DNA from: Siphonodentalium dalli
Taxonomy: Eukaryota; Mollusca; Scaphopoda; Gadilida; Siphonodentaliidae
DNA length: 64,000 nt
Direction: 5' to 3'
Assembly: GCA_032622095.1 (NCBI GenBank)
Contig: CP136067.1
Span: forward strand, 73,496,705-73,560,704
The position numbers were made by a program, and so were the translations under genes. The notes under the pieces were generated by a model. The model searched no databases, was not told the origin of the DNA, and was given only the letters and a program-made list of their open reading frames with translations. Shown here piece by piece: positions 8,906 to 57,791 of the stretch (positions are counted from its first letter, which is position 1; each line of letters starts with the position of its first letter).

Positions 8906-10026
8906 GTTGTATCTTTGGTCTGATCTTTATGAAATTTGTCATTAATGTTGACATTGACATGTAGATGGGAACGAGTCATTTTGGGGTCATTCGGCCAAAA
9001 AACATGGCCGCTGGTGGCCATCTTGGATTTCAAAATTAAATCCATTGGCGCAGACTACAGGCCGTACTGTTTGTGTGATCATCATAACATTTGTCTTGAA
9101 TGTTGACATTTACATGTAGATGGGAACGAGTCATTTTAGGATCATTCGCCCAAAAAAACATGGCCGCTAGTGGCCATCTTGGATTTTATTCTTTGCATCA
9201 CTAAATCCTTTGACACATCCTACAGACCACATCTCTGATCCGATCATCACCAAACTTCATATGCATTATCGGGGTGACATCTAGTCTTCTCATACTAAAA
9301 CCAGCTAAGATATTTTGATGGTGAGATGCTGGCATTCATATGCATTATCGGGGTGACCTCTTGATGGGAACGAGTCATTTTGGGGTAATTCAGCAAAAAA
9401 ATATGGCCACCAATGGCCATTTTGGATTTTACTCTTTGTATGACTAAATATTTCTACAAAATCCATTAGCATGGGTTATAGACCGATCTGTTTGTTACAT
9501 CTTCATGAAATTCGTCATGGATGTTGACATTGACATGTAGATGGGAACGAGTCAATTTGGGGGTCATTCGGCAAAAAAACATGGCCGCCGGTGGCCATTT
9601 TAGAATTTACTCTTTGCATCACTAAATCCTTTGGCAAACCCTACAGACCACATCCCTAAACCGATCATTATGAAACTTGTCATGAATGTTGATATTGACA
9701 TGTAGATGGGAACGAGTAATTTTGGGGGTCATTCAGCCAAAAAACATGGCCGCTGGTGGCCATCTTGGATTTCTAAATTGAATCCGTTGACGCGGGCTAC
9801 GTACAGGCCGTACTGTTTATATGATCTTCATAAAAATTATCATGGATGTTGACATTGAGATGAAGATGGGAACGAGTCATTTTAGGGTCATTCGGCCAAA
9901 AAAACATGCCCGCCAGTGGCCATCTTGCATTTTACTCTTAGGATCACTAAATCCTTTGACACACCCTACAGACCATTAAATTATTCCCCCACCTAAGTTG
10001 AGCTATAGTGTCATTGACACTTTCAT
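8906..10026 (+). repeat. H2 repeat: ~165-bp tandem units and 3' hairpin
   Basis: GATGGGAACGAGTCATTTT recurs at about 8965, 9120, 9363, 9540, 9705 and 9866, mostly 155-177 bp apart. Each unit also carries CATGGCCGC(T/C)(A/G)GTGGCCAT followed by CTTGGATTT, and AAATCCTTTG. The block ends with AGCTATAGTGTCATTGACAC, where AGTGTC/GACACT forms a hairpin (10007-10021) followed by TTCAT. The same ending is present at 52727-52741 and 56311-56325. No coding potential. Confidence 0.75.
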
Positions 10027-13009: not shown

Positions 13010-14640
13010 AGCTCAACTTTACTTTGTAGTTTGAGCTATTGGCATGGCTTGGTATGTTGATGGGAACGTCATTTTGTAAAGTCATTTTGCAAAAAAACAT
13101 GGCCACTATTGGCCATCTTGGATTTCAAAATTCAATCCATTAGCACGGGCAACAGGTCATGCTGTTCGTCTGATGTTAGCATGGGCTTCAGGCCGGAGTG
13201 TTCGTCTGATCATCGTGAAATTAGTCGTGGATGTTAATATTGACATGTAGATGGGAACCAGTCATTTTGGGGTCTTTTGGCTATAAAACATGGCCAACGT
13301 CACCCATCTTGGATTTTACTCTGCATGACTAAATCCTTTGGCACGGGCTTCAGGTTGTACCTTTTGTCAGATCATCATGAAATTTAATTGTCATGGATGT
13401 TAATATTGACATGTAGATTCGGCCTTAAAACATGGCTGCCGGTAGCCATCTTGGATTTTACTCTTTGCATGACTAAATCCTTTGGCACAGGCTACAGGTC
13501 ATACCTTTGGTCAGATCATCATGAAATTTAATAGTCGTGGATGTGAATATTGACATGGAGATGGGAAACGAGTCATTTTGGGGTCTTTTGGCTATAAAAC
13601 ATGGCCGATGTCAGCCATCTTGGATTTTACTCTGCATGACTAAATCCTTTGGCATGAGCTTCAGGTCGTACCTTTTGTCGGATCATCATGAAATTTGTCA
13701 TGGATGTTAACATTGACATGTAGATGGGAACGAGTCATTTTGGTGTCATTCGACCTAAAAACATGGCTGCCGGTAGCCATCTTGGATTTTACTCTTTGCA
13801 TGACTAAATCCTTTGGCACAGACTACAGGTCATACCTTTGGTCGGATCATCATGAAATTTAATAGTTGTGGTTGTAAATATTGACATGTAGATGGGAACG
13901 AGTCGTTTTGGGGTCTTTTGGCTATAAAACATGGCCGATGTCAGCCATCTTGGATTTTACTCTGCATTACTAAATCCTTTGGCACGGGCTTCAGGTCGAA
14001 CCTTTTATCTGATCATCATGAAATTTGTCATGGATTTTAACATTGACATGTAAATGGGAACGAGTCAATTTTGGGGTTATTCAGCAATAAAGCATCGCCA
14101 ATGGCAGCCACCTTGGATTTTACTCTTTGCATGACTAAATCCTTTGGCATGGGCTATGAGTCGTGCCTTTGGTTGGATCATTATGAAATTTGTCACGGCT
14201 GTTGACATTGTAAATGTAAATGGGAACGAGTCATTTTGACGTCATTCGGAAGAAAAACTTGGCCACCAGCAGCCATCTTGGATTTCAAAATTCATTCAAT
14301 TAGCACGGGCTACAGGCCAGAGTGTTCATCTGATCATCAGCCAGCAGCCATCTTAGATTTTACTCTTTGCATGACTAAATCCTTTGGCACAGGCTACAAG
14401 TCGTATCTTTGGTCGGATCATTATGAACTTTGTCATGGCTGTTGACATTGATGTTTAGATGGGAAAGTGTCATTTTAGTGTCATTCGGCAAAAAAACATG
14501 GCTGCCAGTGGCCATCTTGGATTTCAAAATTCAATCCATTAGCACGTGCTACAGGCCGTAGAAGGGAAACGAGTCATTTTGGGGTCTCGGCCTTAAAACA
14601 TGGCCAACATCAGCCGTCATTTTCTCTTCAAACTGAAGCC
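13010..14640 (+). repeat. H2 repeat with 5' hairpin and ~165-bp tandem array
   Basis: It begins TTTTT (13005-13009) then a hairpin AGCTCAACTTTA .. AGTTTGAGCT (13010-13037), followed by TATTGGCATGG. About ten diverged 160-170-bp units follow, each with GATGGGAACGAGTCATTTT, a CATGGCYR..RGCCATCTTGG core and TTTACTCTTTGCATGACTAA. It is the same family as 8906-10026, but here the 5' hairpin is kept and the 3' hairpin is missing. Confidence 0.75.
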
Positions 14641-26610: not shown

Positions 26611-26915
26611 AATTGAGTTCTTTTGTTAACAAAGGATGTAATTAACATAAGACTCAGGCAGTTCCTTTTGTTAGCCTTTTGTTTCCGATTACTTCTCTAT
26701 TTCATATGCTTGCCACCTCGCTTTTCTCTTTCATGAGCCTTAATCGCTTTTCATTGTTCACTACACGCCTTCTCGTGTTTACCTGTCAACTCACGTGCGT
26801 TCTTCTTGTTTACCTGGTTTCTCATTGGTTAAAAATTTAGACACACCTTTTTCGTATTTGCTTGCTGTAATTCTTCACTTTTGAATCGTCTTCATCAGAA
26901 CACATCCAACAAAAT
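26611..26915 (+). repeat. Split direct repeat A1
   Basis: About 305 bp nearly identical to 29660-29966, differing by a few substitutions (for example TTTCCGATTA against TTTCTGATTA) and a two-base difference near the end. It contains TTTGTTAACAAAGG. Confidence 0.9.
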
Positions 26916-26925
26916 TGTTTTTGTG

Positions 26926-28346
26926 TTTTTTTTAGAGAAAGAATTGAGTTATGCTTCTATTCTAGGGTCGTTTAAATCCAACCCTTTTTCAGTGGATATT
27001 AATATTAATCCATTGAATACCGTTCCAAAGAAAAACTCAGAGGAACGTCGGGTAATAATGGATTTGAGCTACCCAGAAGGCAACTCAATTAATGAATGCA
27101 TTTCAAAGTATCAGTATTTAGAAAATCAAATAAACTTAAAGTATCCCACAGTGGATATATAGTCTTGTCGAATTGGTCAAAATAAAAGGGCGAGGTTGTA
27201 AATTATTTCTTAGAGATATAGCAAGGTGTTATAGACAAAATTTTCTTAGACCCAGGTGACATTCATCTGGTGGCATTCAAATGGCATGGCAACATATATT
27301 GTGACATGGTACTAAGCATGGGTCTCAGGTCTGCTGCTTATGTTTGTCAAAGGGTGACCGACGCTGTTGCATATTCATGCAAGCAGGTTAATTGTGTCAT
27401 AGTAAACTATTTGGATGATCTGGCAGGGGCTGAATTCCCAGAATTAGCAGACTGTGCTTATGAAGCGCTTGGCAAAGTGCTCCATAATTGGGGTCTGGAA
27501 GAGGCAGTTAAAAAAGCCTGTCCTCCTTCAACAAGGATGGTTTTCTTAGGTATTCTTTTTGACACCATCAAATTAACATTGGAGATCACCTCGGAAAGGA
27601 TTATGGAAATTTTGTCATTAGTAAATAAATGGCAGGACAAACATACAGCCTCTTTAAAAGAAGTACAGTCTCTTGTAGGGAAGCTCAATTTTGTGTCGCA
27701 TTGCGTACGACCAGGTCGTATTTTCATATCAAGGATACTGTGCTGGTTAAGATCTTTTGATCAAAATAAAAAGACAATTTCTAACATTCCTAATCATGTT
27801 AAATTAGACTTAAAATGGTGGTCATTATTCTTAGTGCAGTACAATGGGATTTCCATGATGTCATTGGAGGAATGGTCCTTGCCAGATTGTACTATGTCTT
27901 CTGATGCTACTTTAAACAGTTGTGGTGGATTGTTTAAAGGAGAATATTTTCATGCTAATTTTCCAGATGAGGTCCGGGGCTACCACATTAATGAGTTAGA
28001 AATGTTAACAATTGTGGTATGTCTCAAATTGTGGGCACCCTGCCTCACAGGGCAGAGAATCGTGATTTATTGTGACAATTCAACTTCCGTCGCAGTCCTG
28101 AATAAAGGGGCGACTCGCAATGCTTATTTACAATCTTGTTTACGAGAAATTATGTACTTAGCTGCCATACACCAATTTGAGATTAGAGCAATTCACCTGC
28201 TTGGTAAGGACAACAGATTAGCAGACTGTCTCTCGAGATGGGACAATTTGCATTTAAGAAATGAATTTTTAAATTACGCAGAGAGCCACACTCTTAATGA
28301 AGTTTTAGTTTCTGTTCAGGAATTCAAATTCTCTCATTCTTGGTAA
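26926..28346 (+). pseudogene. Reverse transcriptase-RNase H, frameshifted
   Basis: Three frames are needed. 26926-27162 carries the RT finger region with ERRVIMDLSYPEGNSIN. A second frame covers about 27161-27258 and contains KLFLRDIARCYRQ. A third runs to 28346. In the third (numbered from 27270) Y47-L48-D49-D50 is the catalytic YxDD motif, FLGILFD lies near residue 92, and the RNase H acidic residues are D212 (SDATLNSCGG), E242/E244 (NELEML), D269 (CDNSTSVAVL) and D319 (LADCLSRW). The fused RT-RNase H of this sequence type is that of DIRS-order elements. Two frameshifts and the missing N-terminus make it non-functional as assembled. Homopolymer errors in the assembly are an alternative for the shifts. 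Confidence 0.85.
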
Positions 28347-28470
28347 ATAAATATATATTTTTTTTGTTTTCATATATTTGTTTTTTATTTTTTTTATAGA
28401 CTCCGAGATTCGCCTGCTCAAGACAGAAGCACACCACTCCAAGTCTAAAGCCTTCGCAGAAGGCACCTAA

Positions 28471-29391
28471 AAAAATCATTTAATTCAATGGAAATCTTAT
28501 TTCCTCTTTTGTTTTTATCATAAGTTAGAACCACTTCCTGCTAGCGTAGATATTTTGCAATTATACGCACAATTCCTAAGCAGATCTTTCAAATCCATTG
28601 ATTCCATTCGAAATTATCTCTCAGGTGTGCGTATTCTGCATATTAAATTTTCTATGGACTGCGAGTCCTTTGATTCTTATGAGTTGAAACTACTTCTTAA
28701 AGGGTTGGCTCGCCTTAATCCACATTGTGTGCATCAAGCGAGTCCCATGACTCCATTTTTATTGGAAAAAATTCATAATACTTTGGATCTTTCTAATCCA
28801 AAGCATGCAACTTTCTGGTGTATTTTGCTAACAGGTTTCTTTCTCATGTTGAGAAAATCTAACATGGTCCCAAATTCTAGTGATAGTTTTGATCCAGATA
28901 AACAGCTAACAAGGGAAAATTGTTATTATTCCGCAGATGTCATAATGGTAGTTATAAAATGGTCTAAAACAATTCAATTCGGACAACGGATATTAAAATT
29001 ACCTTTGCTTGCTATACATGACTCTTGTTTATGTCCAGTCAAAGCTTTTGCCAATATGGTTCGTATCAATTCAGCCCAACCTTTTGAACCCGCCTTTTCT
29101 TACAATGTTAAGGGTGTAGTTAAAGTCTTCACTTATCAGCATTTTCAACAATTACTAAAATCATCTGTAAGTTTAGCTGGAGAAGACCCTCTTTTGTATT
29201 CCTCTCATAGTTTAAGGAGAGGAGGAGCTTCCTGGGCCTTTCATTCTAAAGTTCCTGGTGAATTCGTGCAGATCATGGGAGACTGGTCCTCTGATTCGTA
29301 CAAACGCTACCTTACCTATTCTTTAAAAGATAGATTTCGAGTCGCTGATAGTATGCGTAATGCTATTACAATGAGTTTGCCTTACACCTAA
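28471..29391 (+). CDS. Tyrosine recombinase of the YR retrotransposon
   Basis: The frame is open from just after a stop at 28468 to the TAA at 29391; there is no ATG at its beginning, so the true start was probably lost or lay in an upstream frame. An N-terminal SAM-like DNA-binding part (YAQFLSRSFKSIDSIRNYLS) precedes the catalytic domain. Numbered from 28555, R100 (FFLMLRKSN), H218 and R221 (HSLRRGGA), W244 (GDW) and Y252 (SYKRYL; Y249 is the alternative nucleophile) give the R-H-R-(H/W)-Y set of tyrosine recombinases. In this class the enzyme would integrate a circular cDNA without target duplication. The catalytic frame itself is uninterrupted, unlike the RT. B1 starts 45 bp downstream, and a T-rich 120-bp spacer separates it from RNase H. 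Confidence 0.85.
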   Translation, partial: KNHLIQWKSYFLFCFYHKLEPLPASVDILQLYAQFLSRSFKSIDSIRNYLSGVRILHIKFSMDCESFDSYELKLLLKGLARLNPHCVHQASPMTPFLLEKIHNTLDLSNPKHATFWCILLTGFFLMLRKSNMVPNSSDSFDPDKQLTRENCYYSADVIMVVIKWSKTIQFGQRILKLPLLAIHDSCLCPVKAFANMVRINSAQPFEPAFSYNVKGVVKVFTYQHFQQLLKSSVSLAGEDPLLYSSHSLRRGGASWAFHSKVPGEFVQIMGDWSSDSYKRYLTYSLKDRFRVADSMRNAITMSLPYT

Positions 29392-29435
29392 ATTATTATA
29401 TTATACTATATACTGAAGCTTGGTGCCCTTAGGGC

Positions 29436-29666
29436 TTGGCAGTTTTTTGTATATATACATGGAATGTTCAATGTTTGTATGTCAATATATGTATGTGTGT
29501 ATTCATCCAGTTCATTTGGTGTGAATATTTATTAATGCATGTGCATGTTTTGTGTTCATTTGTGTGTTGTGTTTGTGACTATGTGTTCTGGTCAAATTCT
29601 ATTCTATGGCAATAAATAAATTAGTTCATTTACTTGTAAGTTAATACTGCCCTTATGCTAATTGAG
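29436..29666 (+). repeat. Split direct repeat B1
   Basis: 231 bp, identical or nearly so to 30066-30296; begins TTGGCAGTTTTTTGTATATA and ends CTAATTGAG. Confidence 0.9.
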
Positions 29667-29966
29667 TTCTTTTGTTAACAAAGGATGTAATTAACATAAG
29701 ACTCAGGCAGTTCCTTTTGTTAGCCTTTTGTTTCTGATTACTTCTCTATTTCATATGCTTGCCACCTCGCTTATCTCTTTCATGAGCCTTAATCGCTTTT
29801 CATTGTTCACTACACGCCTTCTCGTGTTTACCTGTCAACTCACGTGCGTTCTTCTTGTTTACCTGGTTTCTCATTGGTTAAAAATTTAGACACACCTTTT
29901 TCGTATTTGCTTGCTGTAATTCTTCACTTTTGAATCGTCTCTTGATCAGAACACATCCAACAAAAT
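29660..29966 (+). repeat. Split direct repeat A2
   Basis: Second copy of A1. Its first seven bases (AATTGAG) overlap the end of B1, forming the internal junction expected for Ngaro/PAT elements. Confidence 0.9.
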
Positions 29967-30065
29967 AGTTTTTTCCCTCCCTCCCACCCAAATTACTACT
30001 TGCATGTGTGCATTGAAATTCAACAATGATATACATTTTCAGAAGTTAGGGTCAGTTCAGAGCAG

Positions 30066-30296
30066 TTGGCAGTTTTTTGTATATATACATGGAATGTTCA
30101 ATGTTTGTATGTCAATATATGTATGTGTGTATTCATCCAGTTCATTTGGTGTGAATATTTATTAATGCATGTGCATGTTTTGTGTTCATTTGTGTGTTGT
30201 GTTTGTGACTATGTGTTCTGGTCAAATTCTATTCTATGGCAATAAATAAATTAGTTCATTTACTTGTAAGTTAATACTGCCCTTATGCTAATTGAG
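30066..30296 (+). repeat. Split direct repeat B2 and element 3' end
   Basis: Second copy of B1, ending CTAATTGAG at the outer boundary. The 99 bp between A2 and B2 (29967-30065) are unique and contain a CCCTCCCTCCCACCC tract. Confidence 0.9.
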
Positions 30297-30669: not shown

Positions 30670-31850
30670 AAAAAAAAGTTGTCGCCGATTGCCACCAAAC
30701 TTTATATATAATCATCCCCATAATATGAGGAATCTAATGGCGTGGTTTAAATATGGCAAAAGTCGCACCGTTCGCGTCAGGGGTGCCCGGAAGGGGGGGG
30801 CAGATTTTTTTTTTCTGTCGCCGATTGCCACGAAACTTACATATAATCATCCCCATGATATGAAGAATCCAACAGTGGTTTAAATATGTCAAAAGTGGCG
30901 TCGTTTGAGTCAGGGATGAATGGAAGGGGAGAGGGGCACCACAATTGATAAAACTAATTTTAGCGCCGATTTCCACCAAATTGATATATATTCTTCTTCA
31001 TGATACACGGAATCTAATTGTGCGATTTAACAACGCCAAATTGTTGTTTTTGGATGAGAGATTGGGAGGGGGGGCACTAAATTTGATAATAAGTCGCCGA
31101 TTGCCACCACACTTATACAAAATCATGCCCATGGTATGAGGAGTCTAATGGTGTGGCTTTTATCTGTCAAATGTGGCCTCATTCGAGTCAGGGTTGCATT
31201 GAAAGGGACAGGGGCACCAAAATTTGATGCACAATTGTTTTAGCGCCAATTTCCACCAAATTTATACACGTTCTTATCCATGATACGAGGAATCTAATCG
31301 TGATTTAAAGACCCCATAGTGGTGCTGTTTGGATGAGAGATGGAGAGGGGAGGGATTGGCACCAAATTTGATAAAAAAAATTGTTTAGTCGCCGATTATC
31401 ACCAAACTTATAAACAATCATCTCCATGATATCAGGATTGTAATCGTGTGGTTTAAGGATGTCACAAGTGGGGCCATTCGAGTCAGTGGTGTATAGAGAT
31501 GAGAGGGACACAAAAAATTATATCTATATGTTTAGTGCCGATTTCCACCAGATTGATACATATTCTTCTCCGTGATACGAGGAATCTTATCGTGTAGTTT
31601 AGATACACCAATTGGTGCCCTATGGGTGAGAGATATGGGGACCTTAAATTTGATACGAATTTGTATACTCGCCAATTTTCACCAATTTCATATATATGCA
31701 TCTCTAATCTCTAATGAGTCTTAGTGTGTGAAGCTTGAGTCCGAAATAGGGACGGGAGGGTCACCAAAACTGATACAAAATATATTTAGTACCAATTACC
31801 ATCAAATTCAGACACGTTCTTCTCAAATGATACAAGAAATAAAATCGTGC
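30670..31850 (+). repeat. ~140-bp tandem array inside the Helitron
   Basis: TCGCCGATTGCCACCAAACT-like words recur at about 30683, 30820, 30964, 31089, 31246, 31391, 31535, 31672 and 31790. Each is followed by an AATC..CCATGATATGAGGAATCTAAT block and then GTCAGGGGTG..GGGAGGGG. About nine diverged units with 120-155 bp spacing. Confidence 0.75.
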
Positions 31851-56399: not shown

Positions 56400-56688
56400 T
56401 TATACGCCCGTTTGAAAAAATGGCCGTTTTATATGATTGGTCCAGCCGTCCGTCTGTCTGTCCATTTAGCTGTATGTCTGTCGATCCTTCTGTCCATTAG
56501 CAGTTTTGGTTTCGGGATGATAACTTTAGTTTGGGTTATTTAAAATTTGGTATGTGAGTTTTCCAGACAAATTTCAGATCAAGTTCGAATTTGGGTTCGT
56601 CCCGATTATTTTGTACTGACTTGTGGCTCTTTTCGACTTAGAATTTTCAATATTTGAGGTTTCCGGATGATAACTTTAGTTTGGGCAA
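56400..56688 (+). repeat. H3 body fragment
   Basis: CCGTCCGTCTGTCTGTCC, AAATTTGGTATGTGAG, CAGATCAAGTTCGAATTTGG. The phrase GGATGATAACTTTAGTTTGGG occurs twice, as GGATGATAACTTTAGTTTGG at about 56516 and 56667. The LINE begins at the end of the second. Confidence 0.6.
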
Positions 56689-57791
56689 TGTCAAATGGCA
56701 ACTACACCTCAATATACAAAAAACAAAATGTATGGTATTCACCACGGGACCACAGATAAACCCAGTCATAACTTACGACAACCAAGTGATAGAGTCAGTT
56801 TCATTGTACATCTACCTGGGACTACAAATCGACTACAAGGGCTCGTTTGAACTCGCGCGTGGTGACCTCATCAAGAAGAGCCTTAAGTCGTTTTTCCACA
56901 TTACAAAAACCTTACCGGCAAAACAATTGCCACAGCATCTCAATATTAAGTTACTGCAAAGCCTAGTCATCCCTATTTTGAAATATAACTGTGAACTCTG
57001 GGGCCCAGATGTTATCAATAAAATATACAACTCATTCCACAGAGCAAAAACCAAAGGTTCCGTCTTCAACATTATGACAGTATTAAATTGAAAATATTAA
57101 CTTCGAAAAAGCCCAGACAAAATTCTGTAGATTTCTCCTGAATATGCCACAAAGGGCTAGTAGTATATTGCATGCAGACTTGAACTGGGAATTTCCCCAT
57201 TGACAAAACACACAATAGCTATGTTATGTAAATACGAACAGTACCTAACTCAATTACCACAAGAGCGACTTTTAAAGGAAGCATTTATGACCGACAACTA
57301 TTTGAATCTAATCTGGATTCTGGAGCATGTCGCTGTCACAATGTCAACAATTAGTCACATCCATGTCCCCAAGTCACGGTATTAATGACGTCTTCGATAT
57401 AAACTCAATACAGAAACAAATATTTAATGATAATATTCGCACCAAACTTCCCAAAAATAGCAATCGACGTGATCCTCCAAGGAACAAACTTAGAACGTAT
57501 AGAACATTCAAAACGATGACTTCTTTGGAAAAATATCTCAACGTCATTTCCGTCCCAAAACAGCGTGAATCCCTGACAAAATTAAGAATAAGTTGCCACA
57601 CCTTGGGCATCGAGCACGCCCTATTCTACGAGAACATATCACCCAATCTGTTAAACATCCCCAACGAGAAACTATTTAAACAAATAATGATCAGCAGCGA
57701 CTCAAAAACTATGCAGGATTTGACACACTTCGTCCACTGTGGAATGAAAAAGAAAGGGGTTTGGCAACCGAGTAACGAACTCTTAAATTGA
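56689..57791 (+). pseudogene. CR1/L2-like LINE reverse transcriptase, C-terminal part, multiply frameshifted
   Basis: The frame starts abruptly inside the RT palm/thumb: WQLHLNIQKTKCMVF is the conserved N..KT..M.F motif, then IYLGLQI (the YLG motif) and the thumb with IPILKYNCELWGP. After a stop at 57089 another frame gives EKAQTKFCRFLL and ILHADLNWEFP, a third (from about 57185) KHTIAMLCKYEQYL, and a fourth (57327-57791) RTYRTFKTMTSLEKYL and LTKLRISCHTLGIEHA. This is the usual end of the ORF2 of these LINEs. RT catalytic motifs and the endonuclease are missing because of 5' truncation. At least four reading-frame breaks occur. Confidence 0.75.

Follow-up and report, generated by a model that had tools for sequence, protein, structure and literature searches.

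One-sided core letters at the ends of a putative Ngaro-type retrotransposon family in Siphonodentalium dalli

Introduction

Where does a retrotransposon begin and end when the same seven letters stand at both of its outer ends and again at its internal junction? This question is raised by a locus of the mollusc Siphonodentalium dalli, lying in a stretch of 64,000 nt that we call the window (assembly GCA_032622095.1, contig CP136067.1, positions 73,496,705 to 73,560,704 of the forward strand). The locus carries a retrotransposon with a tyrosine recombinase (YR) and split direct repeats, and the letters AATTGAG are present at 26611, 29660 and 30290. An earlier reading, made from the sequence only, had taken these letters as shared by the outer ends and the internal junction. 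They are indeed there, but comparison with relatives in the same genome revealed that they are not a terminal repeat of the element. The locus is very probably one insertion of a low-copy Ngaro-type family (order DIRS), whose YR would join the joint of a circle with a host site resembling NATT.

Repeat search and alignment gave the order A1, coding region, B1, A2, spacer and B2 along the + strand, and thus bore out the order and the copies of ~305 bp and 231 bp described before. A1 (26611-26915) and A2 (29660-29966) differed by 3 substitutions over 305 aligned positions and by one indel of 2 nt, and the A similarity extended over ~312 nt in full; B1 (29436-29666) and B2 (30066-30296) were identical at 231/231 positions. 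The length and identity of both repeats are far beyond chance. The 7-mer AATTGAG by itself says little, because the + strand of the window contains it 17 times.

Analysis of the element ends

The 2.23-Gb assembly (9 contigs) was searched with the repeats, and 40 matches of the A repeat and 44 of the B repeat were listed. Twenty loci were fetched first for their architecture, and L060-L067 were added later for their ends. When the ends were read by position (17 5′ and 15 3′ ends), the letters before GAG varied, and AATT was found at 15/15 of the 3′ ends. A pattern search gave 23 5′ and 18 3′ ends; L066 (the site of L035) and the 5′ end of L062 (the site of L049) were dropped, leaving 21 and 17 distinct ends. 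AATT was present, with variable letters after it, at all 18 3′ ends found with a pattern that itself included AATT and permitted 3 substitutions (17 distinct). The 21 distinct 5′ cores were AATT in 11, CATT in 3, AATG in 2, and TATT, GAAT, CATA, GATG and GAGT in one each. A core other than AATT was therefore seen at 10/21 5′ ends vs 0/17 3′ ends (Fisher p=0.0008). The 5′ cores were nevertheless not of random composition, with A at position -4 in 13, A at -3 in all 21, T at -2 in 19 and T at -1 in 17.

The same asymmetry was observed within single copies. Among 13 copies with both ends, seven had a non-AATT 5′ core and each of these had AATT at its 3′ end; the internal B1-A2 junction read AATT in 13/13 copies examined by position. 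The short copies L041-L044 and the copy L036 (described below) followed the same rule. Agreement of the letters after the 3′ AATT with GAG was at chance level at +1 and +2 (p 0.20 and 0.26), with a weak match at +3 (p 0.03), and besides the window copy only L037 had GAG there. Since the letters before the 5′ GAG vary while AATT is constant at the 3′ end and at the junction, AATTGAG is a composite, AATT coming from the 3′ side and GAG from the 5′ side. The candidate of an intrinsic AATTGAG terminal repeat was rejected; the element starts with GAG and ends with AATT.

Uninterrupted target sites

Joined flanks were built for 12 copies and 10 were searched, L036 and L044 being left out because they abut tandem arrays; seven were searched again, and the best 40 candidates were scored in each search. 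The first search gave full-length matches for 3/10 copies (L030, 7 rows; L031, 9; L039, 24) and one partial match at 80% for L037. The second gave 40 full-length or nearly full-length matches for L038 and two partial matches for L037 (109 nt at 97% and 75 nt at 83%). Uninterrupted sites were read for L030 (4), L031 (3), L039 (4), L038 (3) and L037 (2).

The target core was GAAT in 4/4 sites of L030, AATT in 3/3 of L031, GATG in 4/4 of L039 and CATA in 2/3 of L038. For L037 the close site L086 carried AATT as its core and reads AATT-GAGAGG, so that the GAG after the 3′ AATT of this copy is host DNA. L036 sits inside a tandem repeat with units of ~34 bp, and the neighbouring units had AATT (5/6) or AATC (1/6) after GTATAAC. 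In these six insertions (L030, L031, L036, L037, L038 and L039) there was neither duplication nor loss of target letters; the four letters of the target (AATT, GAAT, CATA or GATG) were kept at the 5′ end, and AATT stood at the 3′ end.

Structure of the window copy

From comparison with the relatives, the body of the window copy is best read as 26615-30293. The AATT at 26611 would then be derived from the target, and the GAG at 30294-30296 would belong to the host flank. The features are as follows, all on the + strand.

26611-26614: putative 5′ outer core AATT, the target's own letters, by analogy with L030, L031, L036, L037, L038 and L039
26615-26922: A1 repeat, element start at GAG, from repeat alignment and relatives
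26923-26928: approximate junction of an internal deletion, with ~2.0 kb of L036 absent, from comparison with L036
26929-27162: remnant of reverse transcriptase (RT) N-terminal (fingers) coding; frame 26833-27162 agrees with the L036 frame
27163-27221: stretch with broken RT frame, from the list of open reading frames (ORFs)
27222-28346: RT palm to RNase H ORF, 374 aa, from Pfam and homologues
28471-29391: tyrosine recombinase ORF, 306 aa, from homologues, invariant residues and a predicted Cre/XerH/Flp fold
28852, 28966, 29206, 29215, 29284 and 29308: first positions of the candidate YR catalytic codons R, K, H, R, W and Y
29436-29659: B1 repeat, from repeat alignment
29660-29663: internal junction core AATT between B1 and A2; AATT in 13/13 junctions
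29664-29966: A2 repeat, from repeat alignment
29967-30065: spacer between A2 and B2, 96.9-100% identity where found in other loci
30066-30289: B2 repeat, from repeat alignment
30290-30293: probable element-borne AATT, 3′ outer end, as at the 3′ ends of relatives; host DNA from 30294

Over the non-overlapping A and B repeats together, 3/529 positions differed, which suggests a fairly young insertion and agrees with the recent insertion proposed before. No inverted repeats joining both element ends were found, the four inverted pairs seen being 20-22 nt long and 73-81% complementary, and an Rfam scan of the window gave no match at the gathering threshold.

Coding capacity

Intact members of such families encode Gag, RT-RNase H and YR. 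Between A1 and B1 the window copy has the RT-RNase H ORF (27222-28346) and then the YR ORF (28471-29391) in the same orientation; the RT finger motifs lie in a separate frame (26833-27162), which is broken before 27222. The RT-RNase H ORF matched Pfam RT_RNaseH above the cut-off (3.6e-06) and RVT_1 below it (5.1e-05), and in the relatives L030 and L032 RVT_1 passed the cut-off (E 4.5e-10 and 3.3e-10). At E<=0.001 this ORF had 590 homologues and the YR ORF 602, of which the best 120 were listed; the animal names among the listed homologues of both were bivalves.

Across 23 aligned YR sequences, including that of the window, R117, K155, H235, R238, W261 and Y269 were invariant, and we take them to be the candidate catalytic residues (RHRWY-type). 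An AlphaFold2 model of the YR had a mean pLDDT of 84.5, and all 50 Foldseek matches of this model at E<=0.001 were tyrosine recombinases, including Cre, XerH, Flp, an archaeal Xer, the Tn1549 integrase and the lambda integrase. The ORF is thus predicted to be a tyrosine recombinase of the Cre fold, and the RHR(H/W)Y enzyme recognised by the sequence-only reading was confirmed to this extent. A sequence search of the PDB with the YR gave four weak matches, with no recombinase among them. From 28471 on, roughly 60 codons of the YR ORF pass without an in-frame ATG, and the L036 ORF has none before the corresponding point either.

The RT-RNase H and YR ORFs of the window copy are 124 nt apart and their spacing in L036 is similarly close; the window copy has no room for a methyltransferase between them. 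Pfam scans of four ORFs from L030, L032 and L036 detected no methyltransferase.

Internal deletion

Compared with L036, the window copy is without ~2.0 kb in the interval that separates the A1 end from RT N-terminal coding. The missing part comprises gag and the RT N-terminus, as had been supposed from the sequence of the locus. An explanation of the deletion as a spliced-out GT-AG intron was rejected, since the junction does not fit. Because it lacks gag and the RT N-terminus and its RT frame is broken, the window copy is non-autonomous, and it may have been mobilised in trans after the deletion arose. The shared coding DNA of the window copy, L030, L032 and L039 was 99.4-100% alike, yet their internal breakpoints differed, which for these four copies suggests that deletions arise around retrotransposition.

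The family in the same genome

The earlier reading had proposed searching the genome with the repeats; the relatives so found share both the repeats and their order, and the longer copy L036 is among them. Eight copies (L030, L031, L033, L034, L035, L037, L038 and L039) had the repeat order of the window copy with various lesions. L041-L047 were solo A-spacer-B copies (L045, L046 and L047 truncated), L036 was A-coding-B without A2-spacer-B2, and in L032 an initial A-spacer-B(partial) runs into coding DNA, the two overlapping by 13 nt. Only A was present in L040 and L049, and a 3′ part in L048. The repeats were mostly 94-100% alike among copies. In a genome search with the YR, in which 133 of 1598 candidates were scored, the list was headed by twelve matches of at least 93% identity; the damaged L031 was lower (85%), and the next family was at 58%.

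Some observations were made on single copies. A stretch of ~180 nt (60 codons) near the start of the RT region, present in L030, L032, L033 and L035-L038, is cleanly missing from L031. L037 and L038 have different insertion sites, yet in both copies nearly 150 nt are missing within A1 and A2 is complete. If this gap was inherited, A1 past about nt 121 would not be restored from A2 in each cycle; the gap may also be recurrent, because the two copies are not sisters in the coding tree. At C1 271.94-272.10 Mb, three similar element copies (one of them L035, one L066) apparently reflect a segmental duplication.

The 3′ stretches of two other YR families (L079-L082) had no B repeats within 1.3-1.4 kb. 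Beyond this genome, scans of genome_contigs gave one locus at 31% identity (L009) and scans of viral_contigs none. L009 (JAAETJ010000066.1, 5234 bases, labelled as a bacterial MAG) carries a distant YR retrotransposon in which another YR end, slightly different from the first, precedes gag, like a head-to-tail tandem; the locus is probably eukaryotic DNA in a bacterial bin.

Other features of the sequence

Three tandem arrays with periods of 133-331 bp were observed in the window (30680-31594, 13304-14285 and 9363-9975), one of which begins 0.4 kb past the element. In three stretches of C1 (648-656 kb, 737-772 kb and 835-917 kb) AATTGAG recurred at regular intervals of ~1.57 kb, 14.6 kb and 11.2 kb, which suggests large tandem arrays. 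An ORF of 149 aa at 56642-57091 of the window had no Pfam match at E 0.01 and presumably resembles, as judged by eye, the end of a LINE-type reverse transcriptase.

Proposed integration and alternative explanations

In the established model for DIRS and Ngaro elements, RNA is copied into a circle. In the same way, the RNA of this element would be copied into a circle whose joint, ...ATGCT-AATT-GAGTTC..., survives in the internal B1-A2 junction, and the YR would recombine this joint with a host site resembling NATT. Such an insertion would add exactly GAG...AATT, so that the 5′ end shows the letters of the target and the 3′ end AATT. Exact identity of the cores seems not to be required, as insertion also took place at cores that match in two of the four letters. 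Because the 5′ core of a copy may be foreign, the internal junction would be a natural store of the AATT joint, resetting it in each cycle. We consider it possible, if short of probable, that integration in the order DIRS is polar, with the crossover of one strand effectively inherited (cf. Tn554/SE) and the stored joint restoring AATT. For DIRS1 it has been proposed that the YR integrates a circle (PMC3266345), and insertion without duplicated target letters agrees with such a mechanism.

Several points weigh against this account. The third uninterrupted site of L038 read CGTA (1/3), L087, a diverged relative of the L037 site, had CATT followed by other letters, and the empty site of the window copy itself was not found among the best 40 joined-flank candidates. 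Pfam Phage_integrase remained under its cut-off for the window YR. A1 and A2 of one copy hold common variants, which is compatible with replication and with gene conversion. The assignment as an ordinary Ngaro member is by architecture and domain content.

That the one-sided core reflects decay or truncation of 5′ ends, and not a property of integration, is extremely unlikely: small 5′ lesions do exist in A1 of L033, L037 and L038, but the odd 5′ cores of L030, L038 (2/3) and L039 equal the letters of the uninterrupted host sites with GAG directly after them, and the 10/21 vs 0/17 imbalance is found between ends of repeats that are mostly 94-100% alike. Tyrosine recombinases usually cleave staggered, and a symmetric exchange of both strands could leave a heteroduplex core of which either version is inherited at random, as in Tn916. 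We regard this as very unlikely, since seven of the 13 two-ended copies depart from AATT at the 5′ side and every one of them keeps it at the 3′ side (0.5^7=0.008 under symmetry); for three of the seven (L030, L038 and L039) the uninterrupted sites show directly that the 5′ core came from the target.

The identity of the family and the origin of its short copies also admit other explanations. The echinoderm form of PAT has an identical repeat arrangement, and loss of the methyltransferase from a PAT lineage has been reported for C. briggsae (PMC4157794). The scans of L030, L032 and L036 and the close ORFs of the window copy and L036 establish that the methyltransferase is absent, not which lineage lost it; a PAT-type element that lost this domain nonetheless seems quite improbable to us, and Ngaro is preferred on account of the short 124-nt gap between the RNase H and YR ORFs and the lack of any methyltransferase match. 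The solo A-spacer-B copies and L036 could be separate insertions of mini-circles resolved by the YR, as L041-L044 and L036 follow the core rule and L032 begins with A-spacer-B joined to coding DNA. However, intrachromosomal recombination between A1 and A2 or B1 and B2 yields the same end product, and the solo AB repeats of Cafeteria were interpreted as recombination products (PMC8547959), making the mini-circle origin rather unlikely.

The empty sites give a base-level picture of YR retrotransposon insertion: target letters are not duplicated, the core is short and NATT-like, and the element core keeps to one side. The non-identical target cores refine the published statement, in which the genomic partner of the joint is identical to it (PMC3266345). 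The interest lies in the one-sided core with its footprint like that of Tn554/SE. In addition, the results suggest a use for the internal junction, and both points are open to DNA-sequence tests in other genomes. The available parts of the literature searched (PMC4157794, PMC9210276, PMC3783388, PMC3212892, PMC5633606, PMC6681497, PMC3266345, PMC8547959 and PMC10214605) held no statement on a one-sided core for DIRS or Ngaro; the Goodwin and Poulter originals and the 2015 review were outside this scope, and priority is not established.

Comparison with known systems

Ngaro elements are defined by split direct repeats, internal repeats after the YR and no methyltransferase (PMC4157794). The window copy and its relatives have the split direct repeats A1 ... 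B1 A2 B2, with the internal repeats downstream of a YR oriented as the RT; they have an RT-RNase H and a tyrosine recombinase with RHRWY-type residues, and no methyltransferase domain was found from the ORF spacing in the window, L036 or the Pfam scans of relatives. The earlier assignment to Ngaro/PAT thus held for a tyrosine-recombinase retrotransposon with split direct repeats and could be sharpened to Ngaro. The inverted terminal repeats with internal complementary regions of DIRS1-like elements were absent, and the target-site duplication of LTR retrotransposons was absent from the six related insertions, a set that does not include the window copy.

The Ngaro elements of zebrafish, sea urchin, Xenopus and Cafeteria likewise have the arrangement A1-ORFs-B1A2B2, an RT-RNase H, a YR and no methyltransferase. 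Isolated AB repeats and ORF1 deletions of roughly 2 kb also occur in Cafeteria (PMC8547959), whereas amphibian Ngaro carry an SGNH-hydrolase ORF (PMC9210276), and none was seen after the YR here. The core rule is not mentioned in the available parts of the Ngaro literature searched. PAT elements of the echinoderm form share the split direct repeats (PMC4157794) and the internal repeats downstream of the YR, but encode a methyltransferase, which was not found here.

DIRS1-like elements resemble this family in a circle joint that recombines with the genome and in the absence of target duplication (PMC3266345), and differ in their inverted terminal repeats and methyltransferase. Their joints are mostly NTT/ATT, and the DIRS1 model has the joint recombine with an identical genomic 3-mer (PMC3266345), whereas GAAT, GATG and CATA were used here. 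By our own count, Table 3 of that paper has unequal ends in 10/28 rows, 8 of them with a 3-nt joint; among these 8 the joint is matched by the start in 7 and by the end in 1 (AcasDIRS1). This pattern may be taken as weak, concordant support for a fixed side, although the side is opposite to that of the present family, in which the element core is at the 3′ end.

The bacterial SE and Tn554 are similar in having the circle spacer at one fixed end and the target letters at the other, a footprint that has been explained by a proposed one-strand exchange (PMC10214605). Unlike the present family, they are DNA elements with several recombinases, and the spacer of their circle is taken from the host site occupied before; the spacer here matches the element's own internal junction.

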